The translations under genes and the position numbers were made by a program. Of a stretch of DNA of 64,000 bases, positions 251 to 63,150 are shown piece after piece (the first letter of the stretch is position 1; each line of letters starts with the position of its first letter). This stretch comes from Lepidostoma basale (taxonomy: Eukaryota > Arthropoda > Insecta > Trichoptera > Lepidostomatidae): positions 248,001-312,000 of the forward strand of contig JAHDVF020000937.1 of the NCBI GenBank assembly GCA_022606425.2, in the 5' to 3' direction. The notes beneath the pieces are model-generated. The model saw only the letters and a list, made by a program, of their open reading frames with translations. It made no database searches and was not told where the DNA came from.

Positions 251-529
251 TATTTATTATACAAAACACACTTATAAAAATATTTTCATTTCAACATCTG
301 ATCTAATATCTAAAGCAATCATTTAACGTTAATTCTTCTATTCCACGCTTCACTACTGTAGGCATTGGTTAGTCGATTTATTTGTATTGGTACTGTACCA
401 ATCTTGTGACCAACTATCCTGTAACTAAAAATATGAAGCACTTACTTTGTGATTAGCCATTTGAAATTACTATATATACTCGTACATATAAAATAACACA
501 TTGAATATTAACCACGGAATTCAAATTAC

Positions 530-568
530 GCCAAATAGTTTCGTTTATACCCAAGTTTCATCAGGGCA
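530..568 (-). ncRNA. hammerhead-like motif, F1, left arm
   Basis: On the minus strand: stem I TGCC, core CTGATGA (rc of 558-564), a weak stem II, GAAA (rc of 539-542), then CTATTT and GGC closing stem I. Stem II has lost pairs and the family's CTAGTT became CTATTT, so this arm is probably weak or inactive. Assignment rests on core order and on the better copies at 945 and 48.48 kb. Confidence 0.45.
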
Positions 569-940
569 ATATAAAGAACAGAATGAAACTACAGATTTAC
601 ATGAATACATATAGACCATGGTGTTCAATTGAACATTTTAAATAAAGTAATTGCATTTTCGCTCAGAAGCGCATACTCGTATAACTATTATAGCGCCATC
701 AGTAACTTCAATGAAATAATTAAAGAAAAATCAATTTTGCCTTTATAACTTTACAAATTATAAATAGTTTTATACACTTTTGACAGCTGCTAAAATGGCG
801 ATTGCTCAAAATAGTCTGAAATGTCAATTGAACAAAATAGCTTAAAATAAAAATGGAAGAAAATAATCTAAAACGCCAGTTGAACAAAATAGTCTATATT
901 TCTATAAAAAAATCTGTATTTTTATTAGGTTTTTTTAAAT

Positions 941-980
941 TGCCCTGATGAAACTTGGGTACAAGAGAAACTAGTTAACA
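941..980 (+). ncRNA. hammerhead-like motif, F1, right arm
   Basis: CTGATGA at 945-951, stem II CTTG/CAAG with loop GGTA, GAAA at 967-970, palindromic ACTAGT and cleavage triplet GTT ending at 976. Core, stem II and stem III are intact. Stem I is damaged: the 5' strand is TGCC but the 3' strand reads AACA where other copies have GGCA. Confidence 0.55.
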
Positions 981-1497
981 TAATGAAAATTCCGTGGTTA
1001 ATATAATATATTAAATGTTATTTTATCTTATATAGGTAATAAAAAAACGAGTTCATATATTTCTTTGGTACGTTTTACCAATATATAAAATTGCATGTTT
1101 TCGAATTCCTAACATCACTCTGTAATCCTTTGAAGAGGGTAAGTGCGTTGTGGGAGTATCCTTGGGCTTTTCTATTTCACATTTACGAACAGATATTTAC
1201 AACATGACAGGACAGACACTTGACACTAACGACTAGGATATTTGGAATCATAACATCGAGCATATCCCGCGTCATCTCCGGAAACGGTTTCTGCATAATT
1301 CAGAGGAGGAAGAACCAAATACTGATACAGCTTTAAGAAATGTCTACTAGCAGAATTTGATTTTCATCCGTGGCGAATGTCGTTCCAATAAATGGGAAAT
1401 GGCAGTTTCAATGTATAAAACTGATACAAAGAAATTATATGAATATGTTTAAGTGACAAAACTTATGATAGAATACTTCTATATTTGTATATGGAAC

Positions 1498-1675
1498 TAA
1501 CTAACTAATCATCGCGTCGTCTCTCCAAAGGGGTAGGCAGAAATAATGGACTGCCGCACATTTCTTTCCTGACATACTTCTCTCGATTCCTAAACATTCA
1601 TACACCGTGTCATGCACGCACGTCGATTTTGAATATTTGATTTATTTGATCGTGCTACGTTTTTCTCGGTTTTAT
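1498..1675 (-). mobile_element. RTE-a LINE 3' end
   Basis: Starts with the reverse complement of the (TTAG)n tail and a diverged GACGGCGTGATGG terminus, then the block coding for MNVEEAREICQER-like and RACMTRC-like residues in the complete family. Many substitutions and no open frame. Confidence 0.65.
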
Positions 1676-1940
1676 GACTTATGGGACCTGTATCTTTTGG
1701 CATATCGAATTTCAGGTCTGCTGGACATATTAAAATCTATTTAACCCTTTTACAATACATTCTACCCTCCTTCTGAACCAAAATGTTCATTTTAACTAAA
1801 ATCTTTATAAAAGTTTTAATTGGAGCTACAGCGCTCTTGAGATGATTAATTCATAAAAATGGCGCTCTATAAATCATCCAATTTATTATTATTATTATTT
1901 ATTACAAACGCAAAAATGAAAAAAAAAACTGTTTTATGTA

Positions 1941-1982
1941 GTGTCCTGATGAAGCTCGTTACAGAGTGAAACCGGTTGGCGC
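1941..1982 (+). ncRNA. hammerhead ribozyme-like motif, F2
   Basis: All parts are present in order: stem I GTGTC (1941-1945), core CTGATGA (1946-1952), one extra A, stem II GCTC/GAGT with loop GTTACA, GAAA (1968-1971), palindromic stem III ACCGGT, triplet GTT with predicted cleavage after 1977, and stem I closing strand GGCGC (1978-1982). Stem I gives five pairs, two of them G-U. A related copy lies at 54.31 kb. Activity is inferred. Confidence 0.65.
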
Positions 1983-2159
1983 TCGTTACTCAAAATAAAG
2001 TGGTTTTATAAAATGTGTTTAATTCAATTTTTAAATATGTCAAACCACTGAGTATTGGCTTCTTACCAAAGTGTTATAATTAATTTAAATACTATAATTA
2101 CGAAATTCCAAAGGTTTTATATATTTGATAAAAAATTAACACTTCATTAAATACAAACT

Positions 2160-2500
2160 GTCTTCTTCTTCTTTCTCTTTGCCATTTCCCATCATCTGGG
2201 GTCGGCCCTCCTCGTACGAAGACGCCAAACTTTCCTATTTTCACTCATTTCCACTGTCAGGTTTTCGCGTTAGAGCTCCTTTTCCATGTTGGCCCACCAT
2301 GTTGCCATTGGGCGACCTCTTCTTCTTGGTTTTGTGGGAATGCTGAGGGCTTTTTGGATAATATGCTCGTTGTCTCTTCGCATCACATGACCGTACCACC
2401 GGAGTCGAGATTCTCTTAATTTTTCCGTTATTGGGGCAACCTTAAAGCTACCCCTCACGTATTCGTTCCTTACGTGGTCGAGAACTGTATTCAATTATAA
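2160..2500 (-). mobile_element. RTE-like LINE C-terminal fragment, (GAA)n tail
   Basis: A 74-residue open frame (2270-2494, minus) contains SRLRWYGHVMRR and RRRGRPMATW, the hallmark RWxGHVxR and GRPxxxW motifs that follow the reverse transcriptase in many arthropod RTE-type elements. The 3' side runs into an AAGAAAGAAGAAGAAG tract at 2160-2176, the family's tail. RT and endonuclease domains are missing (5' truncation). Confidence 0.7.
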
Positions 2501-3222
2501 TATATTTAAATGTATATTGTTATGGCTAATAACGAAGGGAAAAGTACTTAAAAATAAATTGTGTAATACGAATATATCATTTTTCCAGAGTTTATTTTTA
2601 ACCGTCAACATACTTTTTACCATTGTCTAATTTTGTTATAAAATTATTAAACTGTTTATGCATATGAAATATATTTTCATTATTCACACCCCGAAACTAA
2701 AAAAATGTTAACTTGTATTTAGAGACGTGATATATTATAATATCACAATCAAATTAATCGTCTAAAACGTACGTGAAATCGATTAATTTATTCGATTATT
2801 TATGGATGTGCGAAGCTGACGCGGGTAAATTCGATTTGGCACGCCCGTCCCTAAACTGCAGCTTGGACCAGCTCACGGCAGATGTTCGGGTAAAAATAAT
2901 AAAGTGGGCAATGTAAACGGTCGTCGCGCGTTGGGTCCTCTGTTTGCCTCGCTCCGTGCACCCTGTTCCAATGCCCTCTACCCGCTATGCACACGGACTT
3001 TAGCAAACAGGAGCCGCTTCTGTGATTTGTCGCGATTAGAGGCAGCTCGTGGCGTCACGCAATTTTTTTATAATAATAAAAAAAAGTAAGAAGTATGAAA
3101 ATATAATAAATGCAGTAGGAATGAGATCAGTGCGGCTCGCGGGCCAAATATGGCTCATTGGCTATTTGAAAGCGACTTTCGAACGAATGGCGTCTTAAAA
3201 TACATAAAAAATATAATAAACT
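2501..3222. other. no gene recognised
   Basis: AT-rich sequence with a moderately GC-rich patch at about 2810-3060. A 61-codon open frame in the patch has no recognisable domain and I do not call it a gene. Confidence 0.4.
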
Positions 3223-3375
3223 GTTAAATTAAAAAAACTTTGTTTTATGTATGACAATTGTATTTTTATTTTTCGCGACAGCTGTTTCGTCAACTTATGT
3301 TGACATTTATTACTATTGACTATTATTATATAAGTATCATAGTGTTTCGGCCAAAACAATGGACTATTTAAAAAA
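3223..3375. repeat. F3 foldback remnant with half hammerhead
   Basis: Minus-strand half motif at 3274-3305: stem II GTCAAC/GTTGAC, GAAA, ACAGCTGT, GTC. The CTGATGA half is absent. The right end carries the family terminus GTGTTTCGGCCAAAACAATGG. AAAAAATAT-type sequence lies on both sides and may be a target duplication. Confidence 0.6.
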
Positions 3376-3398
3376 TATTAATTTAACAGTGATGCCAT

Positions 3399-11159: not shown

Positions 11160-11400
11160 AAATCGATTACAATATCGATCTCCCGATGATGAAGGTGGAA
11201 AACCTTCCATAGTTTATCTAAACTTAAAAAAATGTTATGGTATGGAAATCCACAGTGTTAACGCTTTAAGTTTATAAAATAAAAAGATGACAATACAGTT
11301 TATATTTATATTATCCAACTGATGATGCAGGTTAAAATGAACGGAAAACAAAGTTTCGGGAAAATAATAAAATCCTAGCTGGAGAATAGTTGACTTACAA
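11160..11400. repeat. F5 foldback remnant
   Basis: CCGATGATGAAGG with its stem II partner CCTTC is present at 11184-11206, but GAAAC has become CATAG, so the motif is dead. The family terminus TATGGAAATCCACAGTGTTA follows at about 11240. A weak CTGATGATGC occurs at 11319. Confidence 0.45.
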
Positions 11401-13818: not shown

Positions 13819-14400
13819 AACTAACTAACTAACTAACCATCACGCCGTCTCCCCGAAGGGGTAGGCAGAAAGAATGGACTGCCACACCTTTCTTTCCTGA
13901 CATATTTCTCTCGCTTCCTCAACATTCATACATCGTGTCATGCACGCGCGTCGATTTCTCTGACTCCTCACATGGCCGACATTCAATATTTGATTTATTT
14001 GATCGTGCCACGTTTTCCTCGGTCTTCCTCTATTTCTGGTTCCATTTACATCATTAACATATAATTTTTTTACCATTCTTTCTTCATTCATTCTTTCCGT
14101 ATGTCCAAACCATCTTAATGATCCTTTCATTATTTTGTTCATGACACCATCATTCGCACCGCATTCACTTCTTATATTTTCATTCGACACTCTATCATAC
14201 ACAGAATATCCACACATTCGTCTAAGAGATCTCATTTCTACTGCATTTATTCTACTTTCATCCTTCTTTTGCCAGTTCCATGCTTCGCTTCCATACATAA
14301 GGGTCGGTAGAAGAACACCATTGTGCACTGCCATTCTAGCTTTTTTGGATAGGTTTTTGTTTGCGATGACAACTTTAAGTGCACCATTCACTTTTTTTCA
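13819..14400 (-). mobile_element. RTE-a LINE, best-preserved C-terminal domain
   Basis: A 183-residue open frame (13840-14391, minus) runs KKARMAVHNGVLLPTLMYGS, EAWNWQKKDESRINAVEMRS, LRRMCGYSVYDRVSNENIRS, GSLRWFGHTERM, RNRGRPRKTWHDQINQIL, RACMTRCMNVEEAREICQER and ends just before the (TTAG)n tail. It is the reference copy for about 25 RTE-a fragments here. The very short 3' UTR and tetranucleotide tail are typical of the RTE clade. The element is 5'-truncated, with no endonuclease or RT core, so it is not autonomous. Confidence 0.85.
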
Positions 14401-14409: not shown

Positions 14410-14515
14410 TGTATACAAATACTGGATTTTACCCATTACGGGTGTATTAATCATTAAGAATCAATACACCCGTAATGGGTAAAATCCAGAATTTGTCTAC
14501 AAGTATTTGTATACA
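14410..14515. repeat. hairpin MITE J
   Basis: Arms 14410-14450 and 14463-14515 are inverted copies with core TGGATTTTACCCATTACGGG. The left arm lacks about 12 bases of the right arm. It abuts the 5' end of the RTE-a copy. A complete relative is at 28.18 kb. Confidence 0.75.
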
Positions 14516-15756: not shown

Positions 15757-16042
15757 ACAAAAGTCCGGATCGTCCAGCCTACAACATATGCACTATCTAA
15801 ATGAACATTATGTGTTATATTGTATTTTATATTATTTGTTTTAGATTTATTTTGTGGACGTTGGACGATCGATGTGTGCTCGGGAGATGCTCATTGGTGG
15901 CGATGAGGTTCGCAACCCATCACACTGCGTCTCCCGCGGGGGCAAAGAGAAGGAGTGCCGCATCGGTTTAAGTGTGGCAGTCCATTCATTCTGCCTAACT
16001 CTTCGGAAGGACGGCGTGATGGTTAGTTAGTTAGTTAGTTAG
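15757..16042 (+). mobile_element. SINE ending in the RTE-a tail
   Basis: Starts near CACAAAAGTCCGGATCGT, carries GAGGTTCGCAACCC (close to a pol III B box), CGTCTCCCGCGGGG, and ends with the RTE-a 3' terminus GTGGCAGTCCATTCATTCTG...GGCGTGATGG plus (TTAG)4. Sharing a partner LINE's 3' end is the normal way SINEs borrow LINE machinery. Other copies: 37.63-38.04 and 41.80-41.94 kb. Confidence 0.75.
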
Positions 16043-17877: not shown

Positions 17878-18110
17878 GAAATGTAACATAACATGTTAAA
17901 TTATTAATACGAATAAAAACATCTGTTTTCTTTACGTTTATCGCCAATTAAATGTAACATAACATAGTAACATATTAAATCAATAATACGAATGAAAACA
18001 TCTGTTTTCTAAACGTTTTATTATATTTTATGGGACATGTTTAGTTTTGCTTATTTGATAATGCCTTTGCAAGGCGAAACATATCATTCCCGTAAACTAC
18101 GAGTATAATA
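17878..18110. repeat. F6 element with duplicated end
   Basis: The block AATACGAATGAAAACATCTG followed by TTTTCT occurs twice in direct orientation (about 17910 and 17985), preceded each time by ATGTAACATAACAT. The hammerhead-like part follows. Confidence 0.6.
18052..18090 (+). ncRNA. hammerhead-like motif, F6
   Basis: Core TTGATAA (18055-18061), extra T, perfect stem II GCCTT/AAGGC with loop TGC, GAAA (18076-18079), ACATAT then C. The usual ACATGTC has become ACATATC. Stem I has two pairs. Confidence 0.45.
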
Positions 18111-18129
18111 TAATATAACTTCTAGAAAC

Positions 18130-18436: not shown

Positions 18437-18950
18437 CGCCAGTACGGAATTCTACACTGTTAACGCCTTAAGATATTTAAAAAAAAGAGAAATGTAGGTG
18501 TAAAATAGCAGGCAAGACACTGAGAGATCGCGCGAGGAACACCAGAATAAGAGAGATGTGTGAAGCTGAGGATATTATAAGATGGAGTGGACAGCGAAGG
18601 AGGGACTTGTACGGACATGTTCAAATAATGGACACCACCAAACACCTTACATATTCTTTCTCACGGGACTCGCTCGCGAGGAAGACCTCCTAAAATATGG
18701 GAGCAACCCTCTGGAGAACAGACCACACATATCTACAGCAAGGAAGAAGATAAATGATTTACTATCCCGAATACGTATATATAGTAATAACGTCCAAATT
18801 GGACCACGTCTCTATAATCTGTTGTCGAACGTTCTGTCGTCTGGATCACTATCAACATCATAATAACATTTTTTGATCTATAATAAAAAATCATACAAAA
18901 ATGTTAACTTTTTGAACGCTAAGGCATTAACACTGTGGAATTCCATAGTA
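18437..18950. repeat. F5 foldback arms enclosing an RTE-e fragment
   Basis: Inverted termini GGAATTCTACACTGTTAACG (about 18445) and CATTAACACTGTGGAATTCC (about 18925). The interior, about 18490-18750 (+), is a degenerate RTE-e piece reading CKIAGKTLRDRARNTRIREM then LYGHVQ. Confidence 0.6.
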
Positions 18951-19012
18951 ATATACTTGGGAAAATGAGAATGACTTTGTTTAATTCACTAATTATTTAA
19001 AAAAATTAAAAA

Positions 19013-19051
19013 ACACGACATGTTTCGGAGGATACCTATGTCTTCAGGTGT
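19013..19051 (-). ncRNA. hammerhead ribozyme-like motif, F4, left arm
   Basis: Minus strand: stem I ACAC/GTGT (4 bp), core CTGAAGA (rc of 19041-19047), stem II reduced to AGG/CCT, GAAA (rc of 19023-19026), ACATGT and GTC (rc of 19017-19019). Core and cleavage site intact. Stem II is weaker than at 36.97 kb. Confidence 0.55.
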
Positions 19052-19236
19052 AAAAATATAATGAAAACTAAAGAAAGAAAGACTAATATAAAAACGCATT
19101 TAAAATTCGATACAATAATTCAAATTTAAAAATGAAAACAAATAGCCCAGGTTAATTTTTAAATTAGAATTATTGTATCGAATTTTAAATGCGTTTTTAA
19201 ATTAGTCGTTCTTTGTTTAGTTTTTATTATATTTTT

Positions 19237-19524
19237 ACACCTGAAGATCAGTGGCGGTACTCCCATAGAAGCCCGGCTTGCGTAAGAAATTTTGAATCAA
19301 AACCTCTTCTGACTTACAGAGGTTCAGCTCTTGTGGCTATTCCTCTTGCGTTTGATAGGAACATTGTTGGAAGGTGATTTGGTGGATTGTTGGTTTATGC
19401 GGGGGCATGATAACTCAGATTTGGGGGTTTTGATTCAAAATTTCTTACGCAAGCCGAGCTTCTAGGCTTCTATGGGAGTACCGCCACTGCTGAAGATGGA
19501 GGTATCCTCCGAAACATGTCGTGT
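19237..19524 (+). ncRNA. hammerhead-like motif, F4, split by hAT MITE
   Basis: Stem I ACAC and the first CTGAAGAT lie at 19237-19248. After the MITE the duplicated CTGAAGAT (19490-19497) continues into GGAGG/CCTCC stem II, GAAA (19511-19514), ACATGT, GTC and GTGT. Removing MITE and one duplication gives a fully canonical F4 motif, so this insertion disabled it. Confidence 0.6.
19249..19489. mobile_element. hAT-type MITE with 8-bp target duplication
   Basis: 241 bp, ends CAGTGGCGGTACTCCC / GGGAGTACCGCCACTG, flanked by perfect CTGAAGAT at 19241-19248 and 19490-19497. CAGTGG-type ends and 8-bp duplications are diagnostic of hAT. The inverted ends extend about 50 bases. The middle (about 19310-19420) matches the 3' part of a Jockey-like LINE also seen at 31.7, 39.0 and 60.9 kb. 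A solo left end is at 38.18 kb. Confidence 0.85.
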
Positions 19525-19646
19525 TTTTTAATAATTAGTGGATTAAACAAAGTAATTTTCAATTTCCTAAATACTCGTATATTAAAAACGTTAATAACTG
19601 TTAATGAAAAAACTTTGTTTTTATATCACAATTGTATTTATTTTAC

Positions 19647-19682
19647 GACAGCTGTTTCATCAACCAATGTTGACATCATCAG
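19647..19682 (-). ncRNA. hammerhead ribozyme-like motif, F3, left arm
   Basis: Minus strand: CTGATGA (rc of 19676-19682), extra T, stem II GTCAAC/GTTGAT (6 pairs, loop ATTG), GAAA (rc of 19655-19658), palindrome ACAGCTGT and GTC (rc of 19647-19649). All invariant core residues are present. Stem I is short: two pairs next to the core, then mismatches. Confidence 0.65.
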
Positions 19683-19699
19683 GTGTTTGATGATCATAA

Positions 19700-19732
19700 T
19701 GATGTCAACATTGGTTGATGGAACAGCTGTCG
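19700..19732 (+). ncRNA. inactivated hammerhead-like motif, F3, right arm
   Basis: Same layout as the left arm, but the core reads ATAATGA for CTGATGA (C3 and G5 lost) and GAAA reads GGAA. Stem II and ACAGCTGTC remain. Expected to be inactive. Confidence 0.55.
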
Positions 19733-19841
19733 TAAAATAAGTACAATCGTGATATAAAAACAAAGTTTTTTCATTAACAGTTATAGAATGTTAAAGTATC
19801 TTAGTGTTTCGGCCAAAACAATGGACTATTAAAAATGTTAA

Positions 19842-20354
19842 CTTATAAAATATTGTACGCAAAACATTTGTTGTATATTATAGATTAAATGTTTTAAAGA
19901 CACAAAGTAAATAAAAACATTATTGTTATGCATTCAAACAGCGTAACGTAGCCTGTTCGCAGAATTGGTTAGTGCCGCGGTTACGGGCGAGATAGGCCGA
20001 CAACGCGCAAGAGTAAACAAACAAAAGACTGCGTTGTGTTTCTTTTTTCGAATATATTATGATTCGGGATGAATGGACTGCTGAAAGTTTACGTTCCTGT
20101 GTCTCAGACACGCGGACTGAGCAAACAAGGCGAGGCTGGCGGATCGATCAGGGGGCCATATGCAATTAATCTCCCTCATCCGGGCTCATTGGCTAGAGCG
20201 CCATACACGGACGAATAAAATACAAATAAAAAAAATATTAAATAAAATATTCGTTCAATAGTTACAGCTTATACCAGCTTTTAAATGTATTTAAAAAAAA
20301 ATAATGAAGACGAATAAAAACGTCTGTTTTCTAGAAGTTTTATTATAACTAGTA
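19842..20354. other. single-copy-like sequence and F6 end fragment
   Basis: Mostly unremarkable. GC-richer around 19940-20180 without a recognisable domain. At about 20300-20345 an F6 end (GACGAATAAAAACGTCTG) is present without its ribozyme-like part. Confidence 0.35.
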
Positions 20355-25785: not shown

Positions 25786-25907
25786 TAGAAGTTTTATTAT
25801 ATTTTATATTAATAAAATGATTTCACTGAAATCTCTTGATGGAAGTTCATTTCAAATAATAATTGAATAAAACTATGTTTTTAACTACTTCCACTTTTGT
25901 CGTTATA

Positions 25908-25955
25908 TCGACAGCGACCGGTTTCGCCAGGCTCGCTGGCATCGAAAGACTGGTG
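25908..25955 (-). ncRNA. hammerhead-like motif, F2 type, core G5/A6 lost
   Basis: Minus strand: stem I CAGT/GCTG (4 pairs, one G-U), CTTTCGA in place of CTGACGA, extra T, perfect stem II GCCAG/CTGGC, GAAA, palindrome ACCGGT and GTC. Everything but core positions 5 and 6 is intact, so it is probably an inactive but recent relative of the 54.3-kb motif. Confidence 0.45.
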
Positions 25956-28150: not shown

Positions 28151-28178
28151 TTTAACTTGTACCAGTTTTTTTTTACAA

Positions 28179-28305: not shown

Positions 28306-28319
28306 AATAAACATTTGAT

Positions 28320-36540: not shown

Positions 36541-36929
36541 ATATGAAAGTAGTGATTTGAAGTTGCTTGTACGTAAATCTGGTACAAACACAACAAAACT
36601 ATAGGCGGGAGAGGGGCACCTGTACAAACAAAGCTATGCACACTCGAGAAAAGAACGATCCAAAAATTATGGTATTATTGTATGTCTTGGCACGCGTAAA
36701 CAATGCCCTGTTAAAAAACTGTGCTACCCAAATACTTGAGTCAGAAATTAACGAGATAATAATCCTATCGAGCTTATGTAAAGCGTAAACAGCGGATAGT
36801 TAGGAACTCGCCATTTAAAAGTTATTAATAATATTTACGTACGCATTAAAGATATAATGTGTCCGATAGTTAGCAAACATAACATGTATCATTTAATTAT
36901 TAGTATATTTATGCTTAGGAAATTGAAAA

Positions 36930-37110: not shown

Positions 37111-37629
37111 TGTTATAAGAACTTATAATTTTTTTATCAGTAAGAACTTATGAATAATATTAAAAAATAAAAATATATTATGATAATATAAAAAACATAA
37201 AATTGTAATTTAGAAAAACATACATTCATATTATTCTGATTTTGAAAATTTGGTTTCGTTCATGTGGTACTCCCGTGAATTTGGAGAAATTACGCGTATA
37301 AGTGAATTGTTTTGGTCAATTTGATTGTTGCCGCACTTTAAAATAGTTAATTGTGAGACGTTATACGTTTGTACTGTTGTGATGTCAAAATTATACAAGT
37401 TTTTTCGTTTATATAAAGAATTTTGACAGGTGTAAAAATAAAATTTTCATTTGTTCCAATGACAATTTGAATAATTTCTTCAATATTCTTTTAAAGTTCT
37501 TGCTGGTGTTGGTTGGTTTTAAGTGCCTAATTACTGCCAAATAAAAAAAGTGGATACGTGGAACATTAATTAAATCATATAACAGCTAATTTAAAGAACG
37601 GTGGATACGTGTAACCTAAATTAAATAAA

Positions 37630-38042
37630 CACAAAAGTCCGGATCGTTCATGTCAACATGTGCAACATCGGAAAACATTATGTGTTATTACATTATGTGC
37701 TAAATTTAAAAAACGGTGGATTCGTGGAACATATATTAAATAGACAAATGTGCACCATCTAAAAATAACATTTTGTATTAAATTATTTTTATTTTGTTAT
37801 TTTATTTTATATCATTGTATTTTATATTATTTGTTTAAGATTTATTTTGTGGATGTTGGAAGATCGAAGTGTGCGCGGGAGATGCCTATTGGTGGCGATG
37901 AGGTTCGCAACCCATCACACCACGTCTCCCGCGGGGCGAAAAGAGAAGGATGGAGTGCCGCATCGGTTAAAGTGTGACAGTCCATTCTTTCTGCCTACCC
38001 TTTCGGGGAGACGGCTTGATGGTTAGTTAGTTAGTTAGTTAC
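37630..38042 (+). mobile_element. SINE ending in the RTE-a tail, with internal repeats
   Basis: Same start (CACAAAAGTCCGGATCG), B-box-like GAGGTTCGCAACCC, CGTCTCCCGCGGGG and RTE-a terminus with (TTAG)4 as at 15.76 kb. It is longer because of added AT-rich repeats. The unit ACGGTGGATACGTGGAAC also occurs at about 37550, 37600 and 37713, before and inside it. Confidence 0.7.
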
Positions 38043-39374: not shown

Positions 39375-39545
39375 TAGTCCATTGTTTTGGCCAAAACACT
39401 ATGATACCTTAACATTTTAAACTGTTAAATTAAAATAACTTTGTTTTGTGTATCACAATTTATTTTATTTTACGCGATAGCTGTTTCGTCAACCTATGTT
39501 GACGTCTTAATCTATGTTGACATTAAATAAATATTATATTATTCT
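39375..39545. repeat. F3 foldback remnant
   Basis: Terminus CCATTGTTTTGGCCAAAACAC on the left. The minus-strand motif keeps stem II and GAAACAGCTATC, but the core reads TTAAGA and the triplet is ATC. Inactive. Confidence 0.55.
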
Positions 39546-39639
39546 GCTCAAATTCTCGTGATCTTACACCGATGTAAAAAATCACATTGAAAATAGTGAT
39601 TGATTAACGGAAAATTATATTATTTTAAATGACGAATTT

Positions 39640-39785
39640 GTTATGAATTAATACACTGTTTTTTCCACTTTTGACTTTATTTTTCTCAACATGTTTCGAA
39701 GACTTTACACCTTCACCATCGGGAGAACTTATTAACCATATTTCTTACACTGAGGTGTCCTCTGTGGTTTTGCGAAACGATATCT
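39640..39785. repeat. F5 element
   Basis: ACACTGTTTTTTCCACTTTTGACT leads into a minus-strand hammerhead-like motif at 39683-39727: stem I TTCTC/GAGAA (5 bp), core CCGATGG, stem II GAAG/CTTC, GAAA, ACATGT, GTT. U4 and A9 differ from canonical. Confidence 0.55.
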
Positions 39786-40891: not shown

Positions 40892-41168
40892 CTCCCGTCG
40901 AGGACACCCTCTGTAATTTGTCCCCTCAACCATCTCTTCTATTATGTCATGTAGGAGACCTTCAAGGCCCATAATGTGGGCGATCCATTGGATTCGCCTC
41001 TCTAAGTTACTTCATTATTTTCAATGAACTTCAAGAAAGAAATTTCAATTAAAAATTGTAATTGAAAGTTAAGCAATTCCATTGTAATTTGGAATTAGTA
41101 AAACAACACTGTTTTTTTCCACATTAATTTATTAAATATCTTTAAACAATACTAATAAAAATATTAAA

Positions 41169-41208
41169 ACACGGCAATGTTTCGGAGGTGTCCTCCATCT
41201 TCAGGTGT
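41169..41208 (-). ncRNA. hammerhead-like motif, F4, lost cleavage triplet
   Basis: Minus: ACAC, CTGAAGA (rc of 41198-41204), extra T, perfect GGAGG/CCTCC stem II, GAAA (rc of 41180-41183), but ACATGTC became ACATTGCC. The facing right copy at about 41711-41750 has GAAACATTGTCGTG with a ruined core (CTAAATA). Confidence 0.5.
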
Positions 41209-41226
41209 AATTATACAACAGTTATA

Positions 41227-41690
41227 TCTTCTTCTTCTTTCAGTGCCGTATCAGGTCCCCCCAACGTTGGCGATCACTGCAGCAAAGCCATCTCTATCCT
41301 GCGCCACTTGGAACAGGTTCTGAACTCTTGTTATTCCTGTACACTCTTTGATGTTTCGCAGCCAGGACAGCTGCCTTCTACCAACTCCCCGACGTCTCTC
41401 CACTCTACCCATTAATATCAGTTGAAGGAGGTGGTATTTTTCTCCCCTTAGCACATGACCCAAATATGATACCTTTCTAATTTTCACACTCGACAACAGC
41501 TTTCTATTAGCTCTGGCTCTCTGCAGTACGTCTGCATTACTGAGCCTATCGGTTCACGCTATACGGAGCATTCTGCGGTATATCCACATCTCGAACCCTT
41601 CCAACCGGTTCGTTACATTCACTTTCAGAGTCCAGGTTTCGCAGCCATATAGTAGAACATACCATATATAACATTTAATCATTCTTTGTC
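41227..41690 (-). mobile_element. RTE-b LINE C-terminal domain
   Basis: 81-residue frame (41251-41496, minus): SSVKIRKVSYLGHVLRGEKY, HLLQLILMGRVERRRGVGRR, QLSWLRNIKECTGI and LFQVAQDRDGFAAVIANVGG. Upstream RLEGFEMWIYRRML-like sequence continues in other frames. (GAA)n tail at 41227-41239. Confidence 0.8.
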
Positions 41691-41794
41691 GGAGTTATAC
41701 CTGTATACTTACACCTAAATATGTAGTTCACCTCCGAAACATTGTCGTGTTTTTTATTTTTTTATTATTGTATAAAGATATTTAATAAATTTAA

Positions 41795-41938
41795 GTGATG
41801 AGGTTCGCAACCCATCACACCGCGTCTCCCGCGGAGCGAAAAGAGAAGGATGGAGTGCCGCATCAGTAAAAGTGTGACAGTCCATTCTTTCTGCCTACCC
41901 TTTCGGGGAGACGGCGTGATGGTTAGTTAGTTAGTTAA
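41795..41938 (+). mobile_element. SINE, 5'-truncated copy, in F4 arm
   Basis: Begins GATGAGGTTCGCAACCCATC and ends GGCGTGATGG with (TTAG)3. Flanked by TTTAAGTG and TTAAGTG, a short target duplication. It interrupts the F4 right arm, so it is younger than that element. Confidence 0.75.
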
Positions 41939-41984
41939 GTGAAAAATACAGTGTTGTTCTTCAAATTCCAAAAATTGTATTATT

Positions 41985-44760: not shown

Positions 44761-44764
44761 GAAG

Positions 44765-44900
44765 TTTTGTTAATACTATGGAATTTCATAATGTCGAATT
44801 AAAAAAAAAACATAAAACTGTTTTATTCACTTTTTGAGTTGATTTTTCTCGGCATGTTTCGAAGACTCACATCTTCATGCATTAATGAGAACATTGAGAC
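44765..44900. repeat. F5 element, left arm
   Basis: ACTATGGAATTTCATAAT terminus, CTGTTTTATTCACTTTTTGAG, then minus-strand GAAACATGCCGAGA with decayed core. Faces the right arm at 45.2 kb across an RTE-e piece. Confidence 0.5.
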
Positions 44901-46570: not shown

Positions 46571-46649
46571 TTTATGCATGGAAGCGAAGCATGGAATTGG
46601 TAGAAGAAGTATAAAATCAGAATAAATGCGGTATACCATAGATGAGGTT
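46571..46649 (+). mobile_element. RTE-a LINE fragment, left of F3 insertion
   Basis: GCATGGAAGCGAAGCATGGA and AATAAATGCGGTAT belong to the GSEAW...RINAVEM coding block. The continuation (RFLRRICGRTMYRRI-like) resumes at 46934 after the F3 element. Confidence 0.65.
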
Positions 46650-46933
46650 AATTAACTGTTGAATAAAAACACTGTTATATAATATAAAAATTGTCAAAAT
46701 TGATTTAAATTCTATGAAATGGTCGCGACAGCTGTTTCGCTAATTAATGTTAACATCATCAGGTGTTACAATTAATTTGATTGTAACACCTGATGATGAT
46801 TACATTGCTAGGCAAAACGGCTGTCACGGCAATTTCATACAAAATAAATCAATTTTGATAATATATAACAGCGTTTTAATTAAAAAGGTAATAATGTTAT
46901 AAAATCAAAGTGTTTCCACCAAAACAATGGATT
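46650..46933. repeat. F3 foldback with 12-bp target duplication
   Basis: Inserted in an RTE-a copy, flanked by ATAGATGAGGTT at 46638-46649 and 46934-46945. 284 bp, arms with AACACTGTTATATAATAT and hammerhead-like parts. The right end TTTCCACCAAAACAATGG is the family terminus. Confidence 0.75.
46727..46762 (-). ncRNA. hammerhead ribozyme-like motif, F3, left arm
   Basis: CTGATGA (rc of 46756-46762), extra T, stem II GTTAA/TTAGC (five pairs, one G-U), GAAA (rc of 46735-46738), ACAGCTGT, GTC (rc of 46727-46729). The facing plus copy (46790-46825) keeps CTGATGA, but GAAA became AAAA, removing G12. Confidence 0.6.
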
Positions 46934-47010
46934 ATAGATGAGGTTTCTAAGACGCATTTGTGGTAGAACGATGTACAGGAGAATTTGAAAAGCTAAAGAA
47001 GAATGTAGAG
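46934..47010 (+). mobile_element. RTE-a LINE fragment, right of F3 insertion
   Basis: AGATGAGGTTTCTAAGACGC through GAATGTAGAGC continues the coding block interrupted by the F3 element. Confidence 0.6.
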
Positions 47011-47960: not shown

Positions 47961-48417
47961 AAAACGTGTTTGAGAAACGTTTCCCGCACACAATGTGTTA
48001 ACATGAAAAGAGCGAACCTAATGAGATTATACCATTGACGAGCGAAGTTGAATTACGCTGCTAAAACCGAAAGTGAACAACGCAGGGAAATATGTTTGAT
48101 CGACAGAATAAACAATAGAATCTATAAATAGCGTAGGAACTTAATTCTGGGAATGGTATGCTGTCCTCAAACGTGAGAATTTTTTTCAGTAAATTCGATT
48201 TGCATTCTGTCAGCGTCATACGTCATACTAAGCACTAAGACTTGGTTTGATTCGTAGATATAGTGTATATTTTATCAGTTTTATCACATCTGAATGAAAA
48301 ACATAAAATTTTCGCAACACTTCTTTTTTTTAAATAGATATAAAATAACAAAACACTTTGAATGCAACCACGAATTTAATATTACTATATAATCATCTAA
48401 AAAATTTAAAAAAATTA

Positions 48418-48457
48418 TGCCAACGAGTTTCACTTGGACCCAAGCTTCATCAAGGCA
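48418..48457 (-). ncRNA. hammerhead-like motif, F1, C3U core
   Basis: Stem I TGCC/GGCA, core TTGATGA (rc of 48447-48453), stem II GCTTGG/CCAAGT, GAAA (rc of 48428-48431), ACTCGT, GTT. One core change, at C3. Confidence 0.5.
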
Positions 48458-48479
48458 ATATAATTAGTTGTTATTTTAT

Positions 48480-48519
48480 TGCCCTGGTGAAGCTTGGGAC
48501 CAAGTGAAACTAGTTGGCA
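48480..48519 (+). ncRNA. hammerhead-like motif, F1, A6G core
   Basis: Stem I TGCC/GGCA, core CTGGTGA (48484-48490), stem II GCTTGG/CCAAGT, GAAA (48506-48509), perfect ACTAGT palindrome, GTT with site after 48515. A6 is G, otherwise canonical. Confidence 0.55.
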
Positions 48520-48829
48520 TCAATTATAATAACCATACCGTGGTAAAATACAAAGTGTTTTATTATTTTATATCTACAAGTTTAAAATTGTCTAACCACA
48601 AAGTGAGTGTCATATGAAAACTTTTTATTTTATTTTCTTCCTTTTTAAGTGTTTTGTGAAAATGCAACGCAAGAGTTATTATAATTGTAAAATAGAAAAT
48701 ATATGAAAGTAAACAAGCGATGCGAGAAAAACCGGAAGATTTTCAGTTTAGTAATAATAAATACAAACTTTGATAAACTTAAGGCCAAAATGTCGATTTT
48801 TGTGTGTATTAAATACTGTTTTTTCCACT

Positions 48830-54039: not shown

Positions 54040-54150
54040 TTTACTTAGGTTTATACCTTCGACTCGTTTCGGCACCTTGCTGCCATCTTCTGGTGAACGA
54101 CCAGAAGATGGTAGCAAGGTGCCGAAACAATCGGCTGAAGCCGAACCGAT
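54040..54150. repeat. F8 foldback with hammerhead-like arms
   Basis: Minus motif 54061-54092: core CAGAAGA, extra T, stem II GGCA/TGCC, GAAA, ACGAGT, GTC. Plus motif 54102-54133: same core and stem II, GAAA, ACAATC. Arms are separated by 9 bases. U4 is A in both. Confidence 0.55.
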
Positions 54151-54312
54151 TATTTTTTATTTCATTGATATGATGCGCTTAATCATAGGCTCCCAACGGG
54201 GTTGATAGCAGGTCCATAGCACTAATTATTTAACATACTCGTACTTTCGTATGAAGCTCTTAATTTGTGGTGTGGCATTATTAATAATAATTTTACGGCC
54301 AGTTTGTTTTTG

Positions 54313-54399: not shown

Positions 54400-55590
54400 A
54401 AATGATTTTTAAAAACGAGTATTTAACACTTGGACCCTAGTAAGTTAACCACAAAAACTATTTTTTTTAATAAATTTTCTATTCTCACAACATTTAGCGT
54501 ATTTGAAAAATAAAAATAAAATGATACAAAATCGATACTTTTATACTAAATGAAAAGGGGTGGACTAAATAAAGTCTAGAGATAAGGGTTTATTAATATT
54601 ATAATTGTGGTGTGAACATAGGGTAAGGAGAAAAATTTATAATTGAGTTGTTTATATTATGTTTATTTATAATTCAAATATAAATAAACATAATAATTCA
54701 AATTTGAAGACAAATCACAAAATGATAGCTAATATATAATAGAAGTAATGAAACCAAACTCTTTGGAAACGCGAATCTCAAAACACATAATTTTAAAAAT
54801 ATCATAATTAAAGACACTTTCATGCTCTGTTTTCACACCATTTTATCTTGTTTTAAAATAACAAAGTGGTTTCCTTAAAAAAAAATAAAGTTGTGTAAAA
54901 ACAAATTATAAACGTGTTTGTAATTATTTTTAATAATGCTACACTACAAATTAAGTGCAACATACGAAAGCATATTTAATTTTAACTGATTTCTTAGGTA
55001 ATATTGATTTTTTTTCTATCTTCAAATACCATTGCATCAGATAACAAAAATGTAACACAATAACTTGAAAACAAGTATAAAAGTACAAAGCCAATATCTT
55101 AATAAAGTAATTTTTGAAAGTTGTTGGCAATTTCTTTAAAGAACTCCAAGTAGTTAGTCCATTTCTTCTTTTCCGCAGTTCCAACCGTGAAAATCTTTGA
55201 AATATCGGTTTTACAGAAGTATTATTCCCTCGGGGGTAAAATATGCGCAATCGTACCGAAACAGAGACAATAAATTATAAATTAAATTACGTATTATCAG
55301 ATTTCGATGGGTAACTTTAATACGATATTGTAACGCGGGTCGCGCGAGCCTAGTGCGCCGGAAAACTGATCTTCGCAGTTTGACGCGGAAAGCAGTGGGC
55401 AATAAAAATATGCTTGAATATTTTTTACTGCGCCTTTTATAATGTGAGGTCTTCTTGAATATTCGGGATCGGGGTTAAGGGTTGACAGGGTATGAAAAAA
55501 GATGTGACGCAAGGCGGTACGTATATGTATACGAGTATGTACGTAAAATATTATATCAATATTAATAATAAAAATTGCAATTGAAAAAAC
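54400..55590. other. intergenic, small palindrome only
   Basis: AT-rich. A palindrome around TATTATGTTTATTTATAATT lies at about 54650-54705. Frames up to 103 codons (minus, 54951-55608) have no domain. The 55320-55450 part is GC-richer. Confidence 0.35.
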
Positions 55591-55599
55591 AAAGCCGTT

Positions 55600-55815
55600 T
55601 TGATCCACTTCAATTTATTAAATATCTTTATAAAATAAAAATATAAACCACGACATGTTTCGGAAGTGAACTTCATCCTTAGGTGTTTATATATTACTAT
55701 TATATGACCGATAACGGAGGTCACTTCTGAAACATGTGGTTAATATTTTTATTTTATAAAGAAATTTAGTAAATTAAAGTGGAACAAATACAGTGTTGCT
55801 TTTTCAATTTAAAAG
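55600..55815. repeat. F4 foldback, decayed
   Basis: Arms TTTATTAAATATCTTTATAA and inverse. Minus motif 55652-55682: core CTAAGGA (G5 changed), stem II GAAGT/ACTTC, GAAA, ACATGT, GTC. Right copy (55725-55738) retains only GAAACATGTG. Confidence 0.55.
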
Positions 55816-55929
55816 TTTTTACAATGGAATTCCACAGTATTAACGCCTCAACTTTCAATAAAGTCAATATTAATAGAAAATGTGTGGCTTTCAAAATGAA
55901 CCAATAAAATTACACTTTATTTCACTTTT

Positions 55930-60760: not shown

Positions 60761-60764
60761 TTAA

Positions 60765-60885
60765 TGAATAAACTTTGTTTTTTGTATCACAAATATATTT
60801 TATTTTACGCGACAGCTGTTTCATCAACCAATGTTGACATCATCTTATTGATGAAGATCTTATTGTAATTTATCAAAACATTGAT
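60765..60885. repeat. F3 foldback remnant
   Basis: Minus motif 60811-60846: stem II GTCAAC/GTTGAT, GAAA, ACAGCTGT, GTC, but the core reads AAGATGA (C3, U4 lost). Right arm absent, joined to a Jockey-like piece. Confidence 0.55.
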
Positions 60886-61075
60886 GGACTAGGACTTGGA
60901 TCTTCTGGCTTACAGAGGTTCAGTTCTAATGGCTATTCCTCTTACGTCTGTAGGAAACATTGTTGGAATGTGATTTGGTAGTTGTTTTATGATGGGGCTA
61001 AATGTATGGCCCGGAGTGTCCCTCCATTTGGTTTTAGTTTCCTTAACAAATTATCTAAATTTTTTAATGCACTCT
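60886..61075 (-). mobile_element. Jockey-like LINE fragment
   Basis: ACTAGGACTTGGATCTTCTG and TTACGTCTGTAGGAAACATT match the non-catalytic 3' coding segment at 31.7 and 39.1 kb, degenerate. Confidence 0.5.
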
Positions 61076-61079
61076 GTAA

Positions 61080-61835
61080 TTTACTGTTAGTTTTGTATTC
61101 GTAATATGCTGTAATAAACACAGCAGATTTATTATTTTATTCTAACATAAAAAAATGGGAACACACTATACTATAAATGAATGTGAGTACTATTCTTTTC
61201 GAAACACCGCACCGGCTAGAAAAACGTTTAGTAGTAACCGGAGTTTTATAGCCTAAGCCAGAAACGGGTCAAACTAAGAATAGGTATAAAAATAATGTAG
61301 TAGGGATCATGAGATATTAGGGCGAAAATTTACTACCTACGAGGAAAATTTATCTGCGTACCGTCTGCCGTAATTCCGAGGAAGAGATACCCCCTGATAT
61401 TTATCCGTTCTAAAAGTCCACTCACGAAATTCTTCCGATATACCGGATACAAGACAAACAACAGTTTGAAGACACGATCTCCGAGTGGAGTCTCTACAAT
61501 ATTAACGCGAGGTACAGAATTTTCCACACCTTCCGAGATCGAAACTGTCCTCAAAGTACTCGTGAAATAATTCAATATGTTTTAGAGGTTACCAATAAAG
61601 TTTAGTTTCAAAATATAATGTTTGAATAAGGAGTTAATTTTCTAAGAATGTAAAAAAGTTCTGATAGATTTACGATAACTCTTTTAAACTGATAAAAAAA
61701 TTATTCTCGAAAATGGTTGATTCAATTTATACTACGAAAATTGCCGAAGGAAGTCAGCACGTAATTCATCAATTGACGAATCAAATATAGATTCAGTATA
61801 ATTTTAAGCTTGATTCATTCACATAAATCAAATAT
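61080..61835. other. intergenic, nothing recognised
   Basis: An 80-codon minus frame (61333-61575) lacks a recognisable domain. No repeat arm seen. Confidence 0.35.
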
Positions 61836-61839
61836 TATA

Positions 61840-61968
61840 ATAAATGTCGGTCCCGTGAGGAGTCAGATTAATCGACGTGCGCGCATGACACGATTTATGA
61901 ATGTTAGGAAAGAACTGTGTGGCAGTCCATTCTTCACAATGGCGTGATGATTAGTTAGTTAACTAACT
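61840..61968 (+). mobile_element. RTE-a LINE 3' end, tail-to-tail partner
   Basis: Diverged last coding block, GGCGTGATGATTAGTTAGTTA, then directly the inverted tail of the next copy. Confidence 0.7.
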
Positions 61969-62475
61969 AACTAACTAACCATCACGCCGTTTCCCCGGAG
62001 GGATAGGCAGAGAGGATGGATCGCCACATTGTTCTATCCTGACATAACTCTCGCGCCTCTTCTACATTCACACATCGTGACATGCACGCTCATCGATTGT
62101 TCCCACTTCGAACATGGCCGCCTTTCAGTAATTGATTAATTTGGTCATTCCATGTCTTCCTTGCCCTTCTACGACTTATTTTTCCCTTCACACTACTTGT
62201 ATAGTGTTTATCTTTTTAACCATTCTTCCTTCATCCATTCGTTACATATGTCCAAACCATCTTAGTGACCTTTTCTTGATTTTATTTATAACGCATTCAT
62301 CCGCTTTACATTCCTTTCTTACTTCATCATTAGATATTCTATCATACATTGTTTTTCCGCACATTCTTCTTAGTGACCTCATTTCTACGGCTTTTATCCT
62401 ACTTTCATTCTCTTCTGCCAATTCTAAGCTTCACTTCCATACATATGGGTCGGCACTAGAACTCCCGATTAGTTA
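61962..62475 (-). mobile_element. RTE-a LINE fragment
   Basis: Minus strand from AACTAACTAACTAACCATCA through the RRRKGKTWNDQIN-like, RWFGHMxRM, MYDRISNDEVRKEC and SELRIGRRE coding blocks. About 510 bp, frameshifted. Tail-to-tail with the preceding copy, making a TTAGTTAGTTAACTAACTAA palindrome. Confidence 0.75.
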
Positions 62476-62514
62476 GTTTTTTTACTGATTGCTTAATTAA
62501 TCTTTCTTCTTTCT

Positions 62515-62990
62515 TCGATGGCCCTACAGCCCATATCGAGCCTTAGCCTCCAGTATTCTTCGCCTCCAATTCTTCCTGTCCTCCGCTTCGACCCTCCAAT
62601 CTGACACTCTTAACAATCTTGTTCCATCTCTCCCAACTTCATCCTCCCATCGCAGCCTTGGTCGTCCAATTGGTCTTCTACCACCTGGGTGCCACTCCAG
62701 CAATCTTTTTGGGGTTCGCGATGACGGCATCCTCTGCACGTGACCGGCCCATCTCAGTCTATTCAGTCTGACCTGTGTGGAGAGACTGGGAGCTTTGTAA
62801 ATATTGTACAGCTCGTCATTATGCCGCACTCTCCAGCCTTCACCGTCATTCACAGGCCCCAGAATTCTGCGCAGCACCCTTCTCTCAAAAGTATCCAGTC
62901 GCTCTGCAGATTTCGCTGTCATTGTCCACGCCTCACACCCATAGGTCACTACTGTTCGGATGATTGTTTTATACAGGGTGATTTTGGTTT
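62515..62990 (-). mobile_element. RTE-d LINE C-terminal domain, open
   Basis: 141-residue uninterrupted frame (62524-62949, minus): MTYGCEAWTMTAKSAERLDT, FERRVLRRILGPVNDGEGWR, LNRLRWAGHVQRMPSSRTPK, RPIGRPRLRWEDEVGRDGTR and EAKARYGL. The MTYGCEAWTMT start continues the post-RT region. Sister of 9.5 kb. 3' flank AAGAAGAAAGAAGAAAG. No RT core, so inactive. Confidence 0.85.
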
Positions 62991-63054
62991 TCCAGTGTAC
63001 GTTTCTTGATTTGAGCGCTGGTAGTAGAGAGAAGAATGTTTTGTTACCAATTGC

Positions 63055-63150
63055 TTAATTAATACGAATAAAAAAGAATATTTTCTAGAAGTTATAGTAT
63101 AACGTATGAGAATGATATGTTTAGCTTTTCTAAGGCATTATCAAACATTT
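63055..63150 (-). repeat. F6 element with dead hammerhead-like motif
   Basis: Minus: core TTGATAA (rc of 63138-63144), extra T, stem II GCCTT with AAGCT, TAAA for GAAA, ACATATC. Family end GAATATTTTCTAGAAGTT present. Confidence 0.5.

Follow-up and report, generated by a model that had tools for sequence, protein, structure and literature searches.

Hammerhead-bearing elements of the window

The window is a 64,000-nt stretch of the Lepidostoma basale genome (GCA_022606425.2, contig JAHDVF020000937.1, positions 248,001-312,000, forward strand). About 36 hammerhead-derived copies were counted in it by eye, many of them mutated or truncated, and it is of such derived copies that the "more than 20 places" of the initial annotation hold true. 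They belong to families A, B, C, D, E, G and H, in line with the at least seven families proposed at that stage; a family F (54061-54133) is doubtful. The facing arrangement of motif pairs, also noted initially, was seen in the foldbacks described below, where strands are given as (+) or (-).

In foldback A1 (18911-19582), a left tail (18923-18946, -) reads M E F H S V N A, and the right of the two arms is interrupted by a hAT-like insertion (19249-19489). The flanking target duplication is exact over 14 bp (18897-18910 and 19831-19844), its right copy having been displaced by foldback B2. A2 (36900-37111, -) is a single pseudo-LTR (pLTR) with a hammerhead core at 37007 (-). Foldback A3 (41061-41969) has a shortened left tail, a core at 41204 (-), a centre of unrelated sequence, a SINE-like insertion (about 41799-41937) in its right arm and an exact 10-bp duplication (41051-41060 and 41970-41979). 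Foldback A4 (55568-55863) has the core CTAAGGA at 55682 (-), a truncated right arm, a right tail (55824-55863; M E F H S I N A S) and an exact 12-bp duplication, TCAATATTAATA (55556-55567 and 55864-55875). Family C is represented by a solo pLTR, C1 (1941-1984, +), with core CTGATGA at 1946, a 6-bp stem I, stem II GCTC/GAGT, stem III ACCGGT and H17=T; its tail (2037-2063, +; ATGTCAAACCAC...) meets a stop at codon 5 in the frame as read. C2 (54238-54418) has the core CTGACGA at 54318 (+) and a short left arm bearing the tail M P H H K L R A S (54254-54278, -).

In family B, foldback B1 (34643-34925) shows facing cores at 34734 (-) and 34784 (+), a right tail (34902-34925) and an imperfect duplication (34628-34642 and 34926-34940). 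B2 (19595-19826) has a core at 19682 (-), a right arm truncated in the core, a tail at 19803-19826 (+) and a duplication with one mismatch (19580-19594 and 19827-19841). The hammerhead of B3 (46650-46933) at 46762 (-) faces a damaged copy at about 46790 (+); a right tail (46909-46933) and an exact 12-bp duplication, ATAGATGAGGTT (46638-46649 and 46934-46945), complete the element. B4 (3205-3368) consists of a truncated left arm (-) and, on the right side, a few bases plus a tail (3341-3366, +). B5 (31036-31315) has a left tail (31036-31057, -), a truncated left arm and a right-arm core at 31220 (+). B6, one arm with a tail at 39379-39400 (-), lies within 39379-39730 (-) beside a family H hammerhead at 39722 (-) with a 5-bp stem I and the core CCGATGG. 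B7 (60762-60845, -) is a single arm with a degenerate core region, AAGATGA at 60846 (-).

Foldback D1 (436-1040) carries a left tail (436-460, -), cores at 564 (-, left arm) and 945 (+, right arm) and a 352-nt centre, and D2 (48333-48615), whose arm subtypes differ, has hammerheads at 48453 (-) and 48484 (+) and a right tail (48588-48612). D3 (30150-30380) is chimeric: a family D left arm with core CCGATGA at 30231 (-) is followed by a right arm that is D from 30261 (+) and then family E. Family E itself forms foldbacks at 17978-18128, with the U3-A8 core TTGATAA at 18055 (+), and at 31336-31464, with TTGATAA at 31373 (+); another copy (63054-63150, -) has the same core at 63144 (-). A family G relic (25830-25953, -) has the core CTTTCGA at 25948 (-) and the tail ATGAACTTCCATCAAGAG; its motif recurs with a CTGTCGA core in loci L030, L031 and L033 of Penelope-like elements (PLEs). 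Family H further comprises a solo pLTR (11175-11270, +), in which a hammerhead relic is followed by the tail ATGGAAATCCACAGTGTTAACGCT at 11242, and a pLTR at 44763-44890 (-) with the tail ATGAAATTCCATAGTATTAAC (44766-44789, -).

Reality and covariation of the hammerhead motifs

Using a window-independent descriptor (exact CTGANGA, stem II of at least 3 bp, GAAA, palindromic stem III of at least 3 bp, H), we found 10 exact-core motifs as compared to a mean of 0.09 and a maximum of 1 in 100 dinucleotide shuffles, which bears out the initial description as minimal type I motifs. With the criteria tightened to one spacer and a stem II of at least 4 bp, and with 200 shuffles as control, there were 5 exact-core sites, against 0 in all 200 shuffles, and 10 sites when two core mismatches were allowed (shuffle mean 0.295, maximum 2). 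The core CUGANGA...GAAA with three stems, as in type I hammerheads, is present, and so is a covarying stem II. Core and stems I, II and III are all intact in only two window copies, 37007 (-) and 1946 (+), to which 54318 (+) is added if a 3-bp stem II is allowed. In the window families, an unpaired base separates A9 from stem II.

Stem II covariation had been claimed from the sequence, and it stood. Among 17 copies of our choosing, 73 of 85 own cells were paired, versus 459 of 1,040 cross-family cells (44%). Within family B, pair 2 of stem II is U-A in 42, C-G in 25 and otherwise in 9 of 76 genome rows; it pairs in 35 of 40 distinct sequences, a figure reached in 4 of 5,000 shuffles, with the relatedness of the sequences left in. 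Genome-wide, the core pattern of families A and B has 13,069 exact matches and the reversed pattern 0. In a PLE lineage, the U3-A8 core is fixed, with 2,177 exact matches versus 3 for C3-G8, 32 for U3-G8 and 29 for C3-A8. This compensated change from C3-G8 is reported for several natural examples and stated to be active in vitro (PMC3088659, in the part available); family E shares it, and here it is fixed in a lineage.

Overall, these data confirm the window motifs, which are predicted ribozymes, as genuine. The notion that they arise by chance or homology, the "hammerheads" being merely conserved repeat sequence, could appeal to the damage in most copies, to the failure of Rfam to match the window and to the misfolding predicted for several motifs taken alone. 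Against the shuffle counts, the covariation between and within families and the compensated U3-A8 core, it is highly improbable. As for folding, A2 alone is predicted to form stem II (0.99) and not stem I (0.02), stem I of family B is weak, and C2 and 3 of 6 foldback motifs are predicted to adopt other folds; foldback RNA is predicted to mask the ribozyme.

The Rfam scan suggested in the initial annotation missed these motifs. Whether the window was scanned whole or as three 81-base pieces, it gave no hammerhead at the gathering score or at E<=10, and in the 769-Mb genome RF00163 gave one match above cut-off among the 73 scored of 94,533 candidates. Caution is needed with a model that yields one match where the genome has thousands of such motifs.

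Tails, target duplications and resident PLEs

The tail of a unit has an ATG and up to about 13 codons, read outward, on one outer end, and is here about 40-50 nt long. Judged by eye, exactly one outer end is tailed in all 10 window foldbacks whose two ends can be read. The left/right flank match summed over 11 window elements was not attained in 20,000 re-pairings, the flank windows being set by eye; comparison of the window flanks gave no clear target duplication at B4, B5, D1, D2 and D3. Head-to-head inverted order, a target-site duplication and an optional tail with first codons on one of the inverted pLTRs (30-40 bp in known elements), all features of pLTRs, were found.

The genome copies agree. 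Foldbacks of the TTGANAA type bear tails, such as MEFYKTNTSTIN, that match the PLE ORF start MEFYQTKTSTINK, with E<=0.01 in 20 of 26 distinct loci. An arm of these foldbacks stops at one of two places, 220-222 (9-11 nt short of the ATG) or 256-274, and in 8 of 8 loci whose two ends could be aligned each place was used once. A duplication adjoins both ends in 6 of these 8 loci (score 9-14; cross mean 6.6, maximum 11), being exact over 13 (L038), 12 (L057) and 9 (L043) and imperfect at L039, L042 and L049; none was clear at L050 and L061. At L039 and L042, a second tail-like stretch on the opposite side, beyond the duplication, is taken for a neighbouring copy. Compared by eye, the family A tail MEFHSINASTFNK agrees with MEFYQTKTSTINK in no more than 7 of 13 residues, the tails of families B, C and D could be tied to no ORF here, and the tail motif begins none of 149 public PLE proteins. 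An AC-rich stem-loop has been reported for the start site; tail folding (z-scores -2.37 to +1.22) did not support it.

By comparison with the 149 PLE proteins, the window lacks PLE coding sequence (best E 0.14). Since the window has no RT + GIY-YIG ORF, we term the units PLE-derived rather than PLEs; the lack of such an ORF is expected of non-autonomous copies. The genome has at least 55 PLE protein matches (55 scored of 597 candidates). At L004, a facing hammerhead pair occurs, of which the direct one (core CTGATGA, stem II GGAGGCC/GGCCTCC) overlaps the start of an 822-codon frame. L026 holds a 434-nt palindrome (97%) that has a motif in each arm and from which two PLE frames run in opposite directions. 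The hammerhead and tail anatomy of the window units recurs at L004 and at the MEFYQ-type loci. Close pairs in the genome are head-to-head in 10 of 10 cases within 2.5 kb and 7 of 7 within 1 kb, and close opposite-strand PLE matches are minus/plus in 6 of 6 (by eye). The initial annotation, partly supported overall, was right about the motif type, the several families, the covarying stem II and the facing pairs; the elements do not form a separate class of inverted-repeat DNA, as they are PLE pLTR pairs and L004 and L026 carry the same facing pair.

Two other classes of element were considered. One is a MITE or foldback DNA transposon that a DNA transposase would move, the hammerhead-like sequence being a chance or captured part of the terminal inverted repeat; the units, which are short and non-coding and have inverted repeats and flanking duplications, would suit it. 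However, a tail that is present on one end alone and reads outward from a start codon does not fit such a transposon; furthermore, truncated arms have one 3' end in common, duplications vary in length where fixed length and symmetric termini would be expected, and PLEs share the anatomy, making this explanation most unlikely. Animal retrozymes, non-autonomous circular-RNA elements, are likewise small, non-coding and AT-rich with type I hammerheads, but the available text of PMC7229834 presents them as direct tandem repeats of 150-450 bp, whereas the pairs here are head-to-head. No such array was found by a tandem repeat search of the window, and the unit ends are PLE start-codon tails; we regard a retrozyme origin as highly improbable.

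Thus the units are very probably short non-coding insertions derived from several hammerhead-bearing PLE families, made of two facing pLTRs, copies of the PLE control region that each begin with the hammerhead motif, with one tail and a duplicated target. The motif, the facing order, the one-ended tail, the target duplications and the presence of PLEs with the same anatomy in the same genome are the observed basis of this reading. Minimal type I hammerheads in metazoan genomes and PLEs were reportedly described by Cervera and de la Pena in 2014.

Known systems and insertion of the units

The arrangement had initially been thought undescribed, and this must be corrected: in the available text of PMC3846280, EN-containing Penelope of Adineta vaga has solo pLTRs and inverted pLTRs, most often head-to-head, with an optional 31-bp tail on one (the first 12-22 codons lie in pLTR plus tail) and 8-10 bp target duplications. 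There, copies are few and an ORF or captured sequence lies between the paired pLTRs, whereas short ORF-less pairs are abundant here; "hammerhead" occurs 0 times in that text. PLE pLTRs with minimal type I hammerheads are also in print (PMC7761336, PMC11167929, as far as available). Like ours, those of PMC7761336 have a reduced stem III, may need dimers and are dispersed by thousands in non-coding DNA; the families here differ by the unpaired base after A9 and are often facing. PAc, a Poseidon PLE of Anolis carolinensis, also has a hammerhead at the ORF start; the text seen of PMC11167929 describes tandem direct copies and no head-to-head short units, in contrast to the facing pairs here. Head-to-head pLTRs and PLE hammerheads are thus each known; new to us is their union in abundant short units and the one-tail rule (10/10 in the window, 8/8 readable genome loci).

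According to the same text, PAc primes on both target strands, unprocessed RNA is the main substrate and two adjacent internal reverse-transcription start sites account for the tail. In vitro, the two strands showed no difference in start site, from which one tail per insertion, as seen here, is not predicted. Each unit reads [inverted pLTR][direct pLTR], joined at the 5' ends where the hammerhead sits, one outer end halting just before the PLE start codon and the other extending about 40-50 nt into the first codons. The PLE protein may cut both target strands and prime reverse transcription on each, starting downstream on one strand and upstream on the other; both cDNAs would reach the RNA 5' end through an uncleaved hammerhead and be joined there. 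We give about even chances to two such priming events per unit, with a strand-specific start site and joining at the RNA 5' end. The hammerhead would have its role in the RNA cycle of the PLE; a foldback transcript is predicted to lock it in a long hairpin and keep it silent. More tentatively, and less likely than not, every head-to-head unit might result directly from two ordered primings by one PLE complex, the first strand being primed at the tail site and the second at the upstream site. Short pairs would then be a normal PLE end product that spreads as a MITE-like class of its own, and the facing arms, by pairing, would hide both ribozymes, the foldback serving as an off-switch.

The units offer a readable record of insertion by poorly understood PLEs, bearing on the insertion mode, the frequent pLTR inversion and the hammerhead role left open in the available texts of PMC7761336, PMC3846280 and PMC11167929. 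With many short paired units having a tail, a duplication and readable arms, two primings and self-priming make countable predictions. By self-priming, a single cDNA of the same PLE elements would fold back at its end and be copied into a hairpin, as the author of PMC3846280, in the part available, proposes for A. vaga Penelope with an antisense template, arguing from junction palindromes. This route is possible though doubtful here. In B1, B2 and B3 the two arms are sisters in a tree, an outcome that self-priming would also produce, and the centres of B3, D2 and D3 are near-palindromic with short loops. However, the right arm of A1 clusters with A2 (83/85 support), D3 combines two families, and the right arm of D2, from which a stretch present in its partner is missing, is nearer to the left arm of D3 (87%) than to that partner (81%). 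A simple hairpin copy also predicts tails at both ends or neither, whereas exactly one was observed in 10/10 window foldbacks and 8/8 genome loci.

Hammerhead motifs and their cores

The initial annotation had described many hammerhead-like motifs in foldback families. Indeed, the window held 10 exact-core motifs whereas 100 shuffles averaged 0.09, with four families contributing motifs and copies of the same family not being independent. A stricter descriptor gave 5 motifs in the window and none in 200 shuffles. Hammerheads are characterized by CUGANGA, GAAA, the A15.1-U16.1 pair and H17, and the descriptor used these parts. In the copies compared, A9 and stem II are separated by a single unpaired base; the CChMVd viroid has an extra base at this place. 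Stem III is palindromic in families A (ACATGT), B (ACAGCTGT), C (ACCGGT) and D (ACTAGT). Almost no stem III would form within a single RNA molecule, in agreement with the reduced hammerheads, possibly dependent on dimers, that PMC7761336 reports for Penelope-like elements (PLEs).

Covariation of stem II, also proposed from the sequence, was borne out. In a table of 17 chosen copies (row B3R read one base off, 5′ flank of A1R being insertion sequence, A3L moved one base by hand), stem II pairs in 73 of the 85 own cells versus 459 of the 1,040 cross-family cells. The corresponding values for stem I were 52/85 and 467/1,040, and stem I is weak in family B. The Rfam check that had been suggested did not recover the motifs: no hammerhead was returned for the window and three short pieces, the matches being mostly of microRNA type and located on foldbacks. 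MAFFT did not align the hammerheads well enough to support a covariance model, and none was built. A foldback of CCAGAAGATGG and AAGGTGCCGAAACGAGTC at 54061-54133 is hammerhead-like apart from core position 4 (CAGAAGA); it is perhaps another PLE family.

In the 769-Mb assembly of the same genome, the A/B core pattern with stem II left free had 13,069 exact matches and its reversed control had none. Among the 76 family B rows listed, pair 2 of stem II was U-A in 42, C-G in 25, U-G in 3 and mispaired in 6. The single RF00163 match of the genome lies in locus L003, which carries ACACGTGT-type and family H motifs at 712 (-) and ~1477-1519; further families therefore exist. Viral and prokaryote contigs scanned with the pattern gave 0, 0 and 2 matches, the two on bacterial contigs being without stems and taken as chance, and a search for PLEs in viral contigs and in phages found none.

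Family E (core TTGATAA) was at one point considered as a dead hammerhead. This reading was dropped, its core being a compensated U3-A8. In the lineage of family E and of PLE frames starting with MEFYQ, U3-A8 replaces C3-G8. The TTGANAA pattern had 2,177 exact genome matches (reversed control, 0); with the other motif parts fixed, the counts were 2,177 for U3-A8, 32 for U3-G8, 29 for C3-A8 and 3 for C3-G8. The change from C3-G8 is compensated between families and merely fixed inside the E/MEFYQ lineage. Several natural hammerheads with U3-A8, for which in vitro activity is cited, are reported in PMC3088659.

Foldback plan and parent elements

The inverted-repeat search of the window gave 35 inverted pairs in total, 25 of them among the matches listed. 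A common plan was observed in A1, A3, A4, B1-B5, D1 and D2: two pseudo-LTRs stand head to head, with the 5′ sides of the hammerheads central and the 3′ parts of the pseudo-LTRs outward. One outer end carries an extra ATG-bearing sequence, the tail. It reads ATG GAA TTC CAC AGT RTT AAY GCC in most family A copies, ATG TCT AAC CAC AAA GTG AGT GCT, with changes, in family D, ...GTGTTTCGGCCAAAACAATGGAC in family B and ATG AAC TTC CAT CAA GAG in family G. Over 12 tails, second codon positions were the least variable within groups; third positions were not the most variable in group A (0.34, 0.10, 0.21), and the pairs compared throughout are not independent. An AC-rich hairpin looked for in the tails was not supported.

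Parent elements were searched with 149 PLE proteins, drawn from 44 plus the 120 listed of 1,736. The set contains the reverse transcriptase, its alignment consensus has a GIY-YIG-type C-terminus, and it includes an Anolis carolinensis member (P0079). None matched the window (best E 0.14). In the own genome, protein P0055 gave at least 55 matches (55 of 597 candidates scored). Locus L004 has an 822-codon frame with a hammerhead over the frame start (CTAACACC-CTGATGA-T-GGAGGCC..GGCCTCC-GAAACGTT-GGTGGAGC) and a mirror copy upstream. The frame opens with MEFYQTKTSTINK in 10 of the 30 fetched PLE loci (L017-L022, L026-L029) and with MEFYKTKTATINK in L024. Upstream of the four inspected, L017, L018, L024 and L026, reading by eye showed a motif whose core is TTGAAAA and whose stem I is CAGT/ACTG; the scripted scan missed it because two core positions deviate and stem III exceeds the allowed length. 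At L026, two MEFYQTKTSTINK frames diverge from a 434-nt palindrome with one motif per arm. The family G motif stands beside PLE frames in L030, L031 and L033, as a facing pair in L033. Close opposite-strand PLE matches at C219, C308, C502, C652, C753 and C848 were all minus then plus. Finally, the family A tail and the MEFYQ start share 7 of 13 residues.

Tails, arm ends and target duplications

As judged by eye, the tail is confined to one end in all ten window foldbacks with both ends readable, a count that leaves aside D3, the E foldbacks, B6 and B7. It is on the left in A1, A3, B5 and D1, and on the right in A4, B1, B2, B3, B4 and D2; C2, with its tail on the left, agrees with this plan. 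If tails occurred independently at each end, a single tail would be expected in no more than half of the foldbacks, and by our arithmetic the probability of 10/10 is then at most about 0.001. The tail scans tolerate 7-8 mismatches, so that more divergent tails would escape them; the shortened tail of A3 was found by eye. In four family B arms (3205-3306, 31060-31166, 39405-39510, 60762-60845) similarity breaks off at the foot of stem II or close to it, and these break points resemble one another more than might be expected of random truncation.

The same arrangement was observed genome-wide. Neighbours within 2.5 kb were minus/plus in 10/10 cases among the 100 TTGANAA matches listed, and those within 1 kb in 7/7 cases for the 76 family B rows among the matches listed. 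The 24 rows outside the B set held, by eye, two more minus/plus pairs, as well as one plus/plus neighbour whose families differ. Of the 26 distinct TTGANAA-type loci (30 fetched), 20 gave a tail match with E<=0.01. Aligned to one PLE locus, arms have two kinds of end, the short one at 220-222 (9-11 nt ahead of the ATG) and the long one at 256-274, and all eight loci with both ends aligned (L038, L039, L042, L043, L049, L050, L057 and, in pieces, L061) have one short and one long arm end. Target duplications adjoin both ends in six of these, exact at L038 (13), L057 (12) and L043 (9) and imperfect at L039, L042 and L049; none was found at L050 and L061. A second tail-like stretch at L039 and L042 lies outside their duplications.

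In the window, comparison of ~40 bases at each end of 11 elements gave a summed flank match of 105, reached in 0 of 20,000 re-pairings. Exact duplications were observed for A1 (14 bp), B3 (12), A4 (12) and A3 (10), and B2 is placed within the right duplication of A1; this comparison showed no clear duplication at B4, B5, D1, D2 and D3. A hAT-like element with ends CAGTGGCGG...CCGCCACTG (19249-19489) lies inside a hammerhead core, in the right arm of A1, with an 8-bp duplication, CTGAAGAT, seen by eye. A SINE-like repeat ending in (GTTA)n is present at 41799-41937, 15897-16037 and 37897-38037, with an end similar to repeats near 11800, 13820, 50995 and 61965; by eye, the copy at 41799 splits foldback A3 with a 7-bp duplication.

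Origin of the head-to-head join and other window content

In the PLE in vitro system, according to PMC11167929, priming occurs on both target strands, two adjacent internal start sites define the tail, and hammerhead mutants leave insertion unaffected, unprocessed RNA being the main substrate. The observed foldback unit would result if a single target were primed twice, once from each start site. The arms retain the hammerhead, showing that the templates were uncut there, and none of the arms read by eye starts at the cleavage site. Self-priming, proposed for Penelope elements in PMC3846280, is a possible origin of the join. The arms are sisters in B1, B2 and B3, and the remaining foldbacks other than D2 and A1 gave no clear grouping of their arms. 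They are not sisters in D2 (identity) and A1 (tree), and D3 combines two families, which favours two templates at least sometimes. MITE and retrozyme origins were considered and rejected. In the literature covered, which included few subscription papers, we found no description of hammerheads in head-to-head PLE units or of the one-tail rule.

When whole foldbacks were folded as RNA, the stem II probability was 0.00 in 6/6 entries; for the same six motifs folded alone it was 0.71-1.00 in three and 0.00-0.01 in three. With stem II lost in these predicted folds, a foldback transcript should be silent, without self-cleavage.

The window, 64 kb of animal DNA, has 30-44% GC per 2 kb and no tRNA. 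A Pfam search of 20 of its 62 ORFs of at least 90 aa showed no PLE domain and one weak match below cut-off. Among ORFs reaching 150 aa, just one has a usual start, a LINE-type reverse-transcriptase fragment (13840-14397, -). Its identity is up to 72% with unnamed database proteins and about 60% with those of moths, and its named relatives are from moths and butterflies. A near-perfect hairpin family devoid of hammerhead (28172-28311 and 14410-14501) gave half-matches to Rfam plant microRNAs, the lowest E being 1e-13, with scores that stayed under the gathering threshold.
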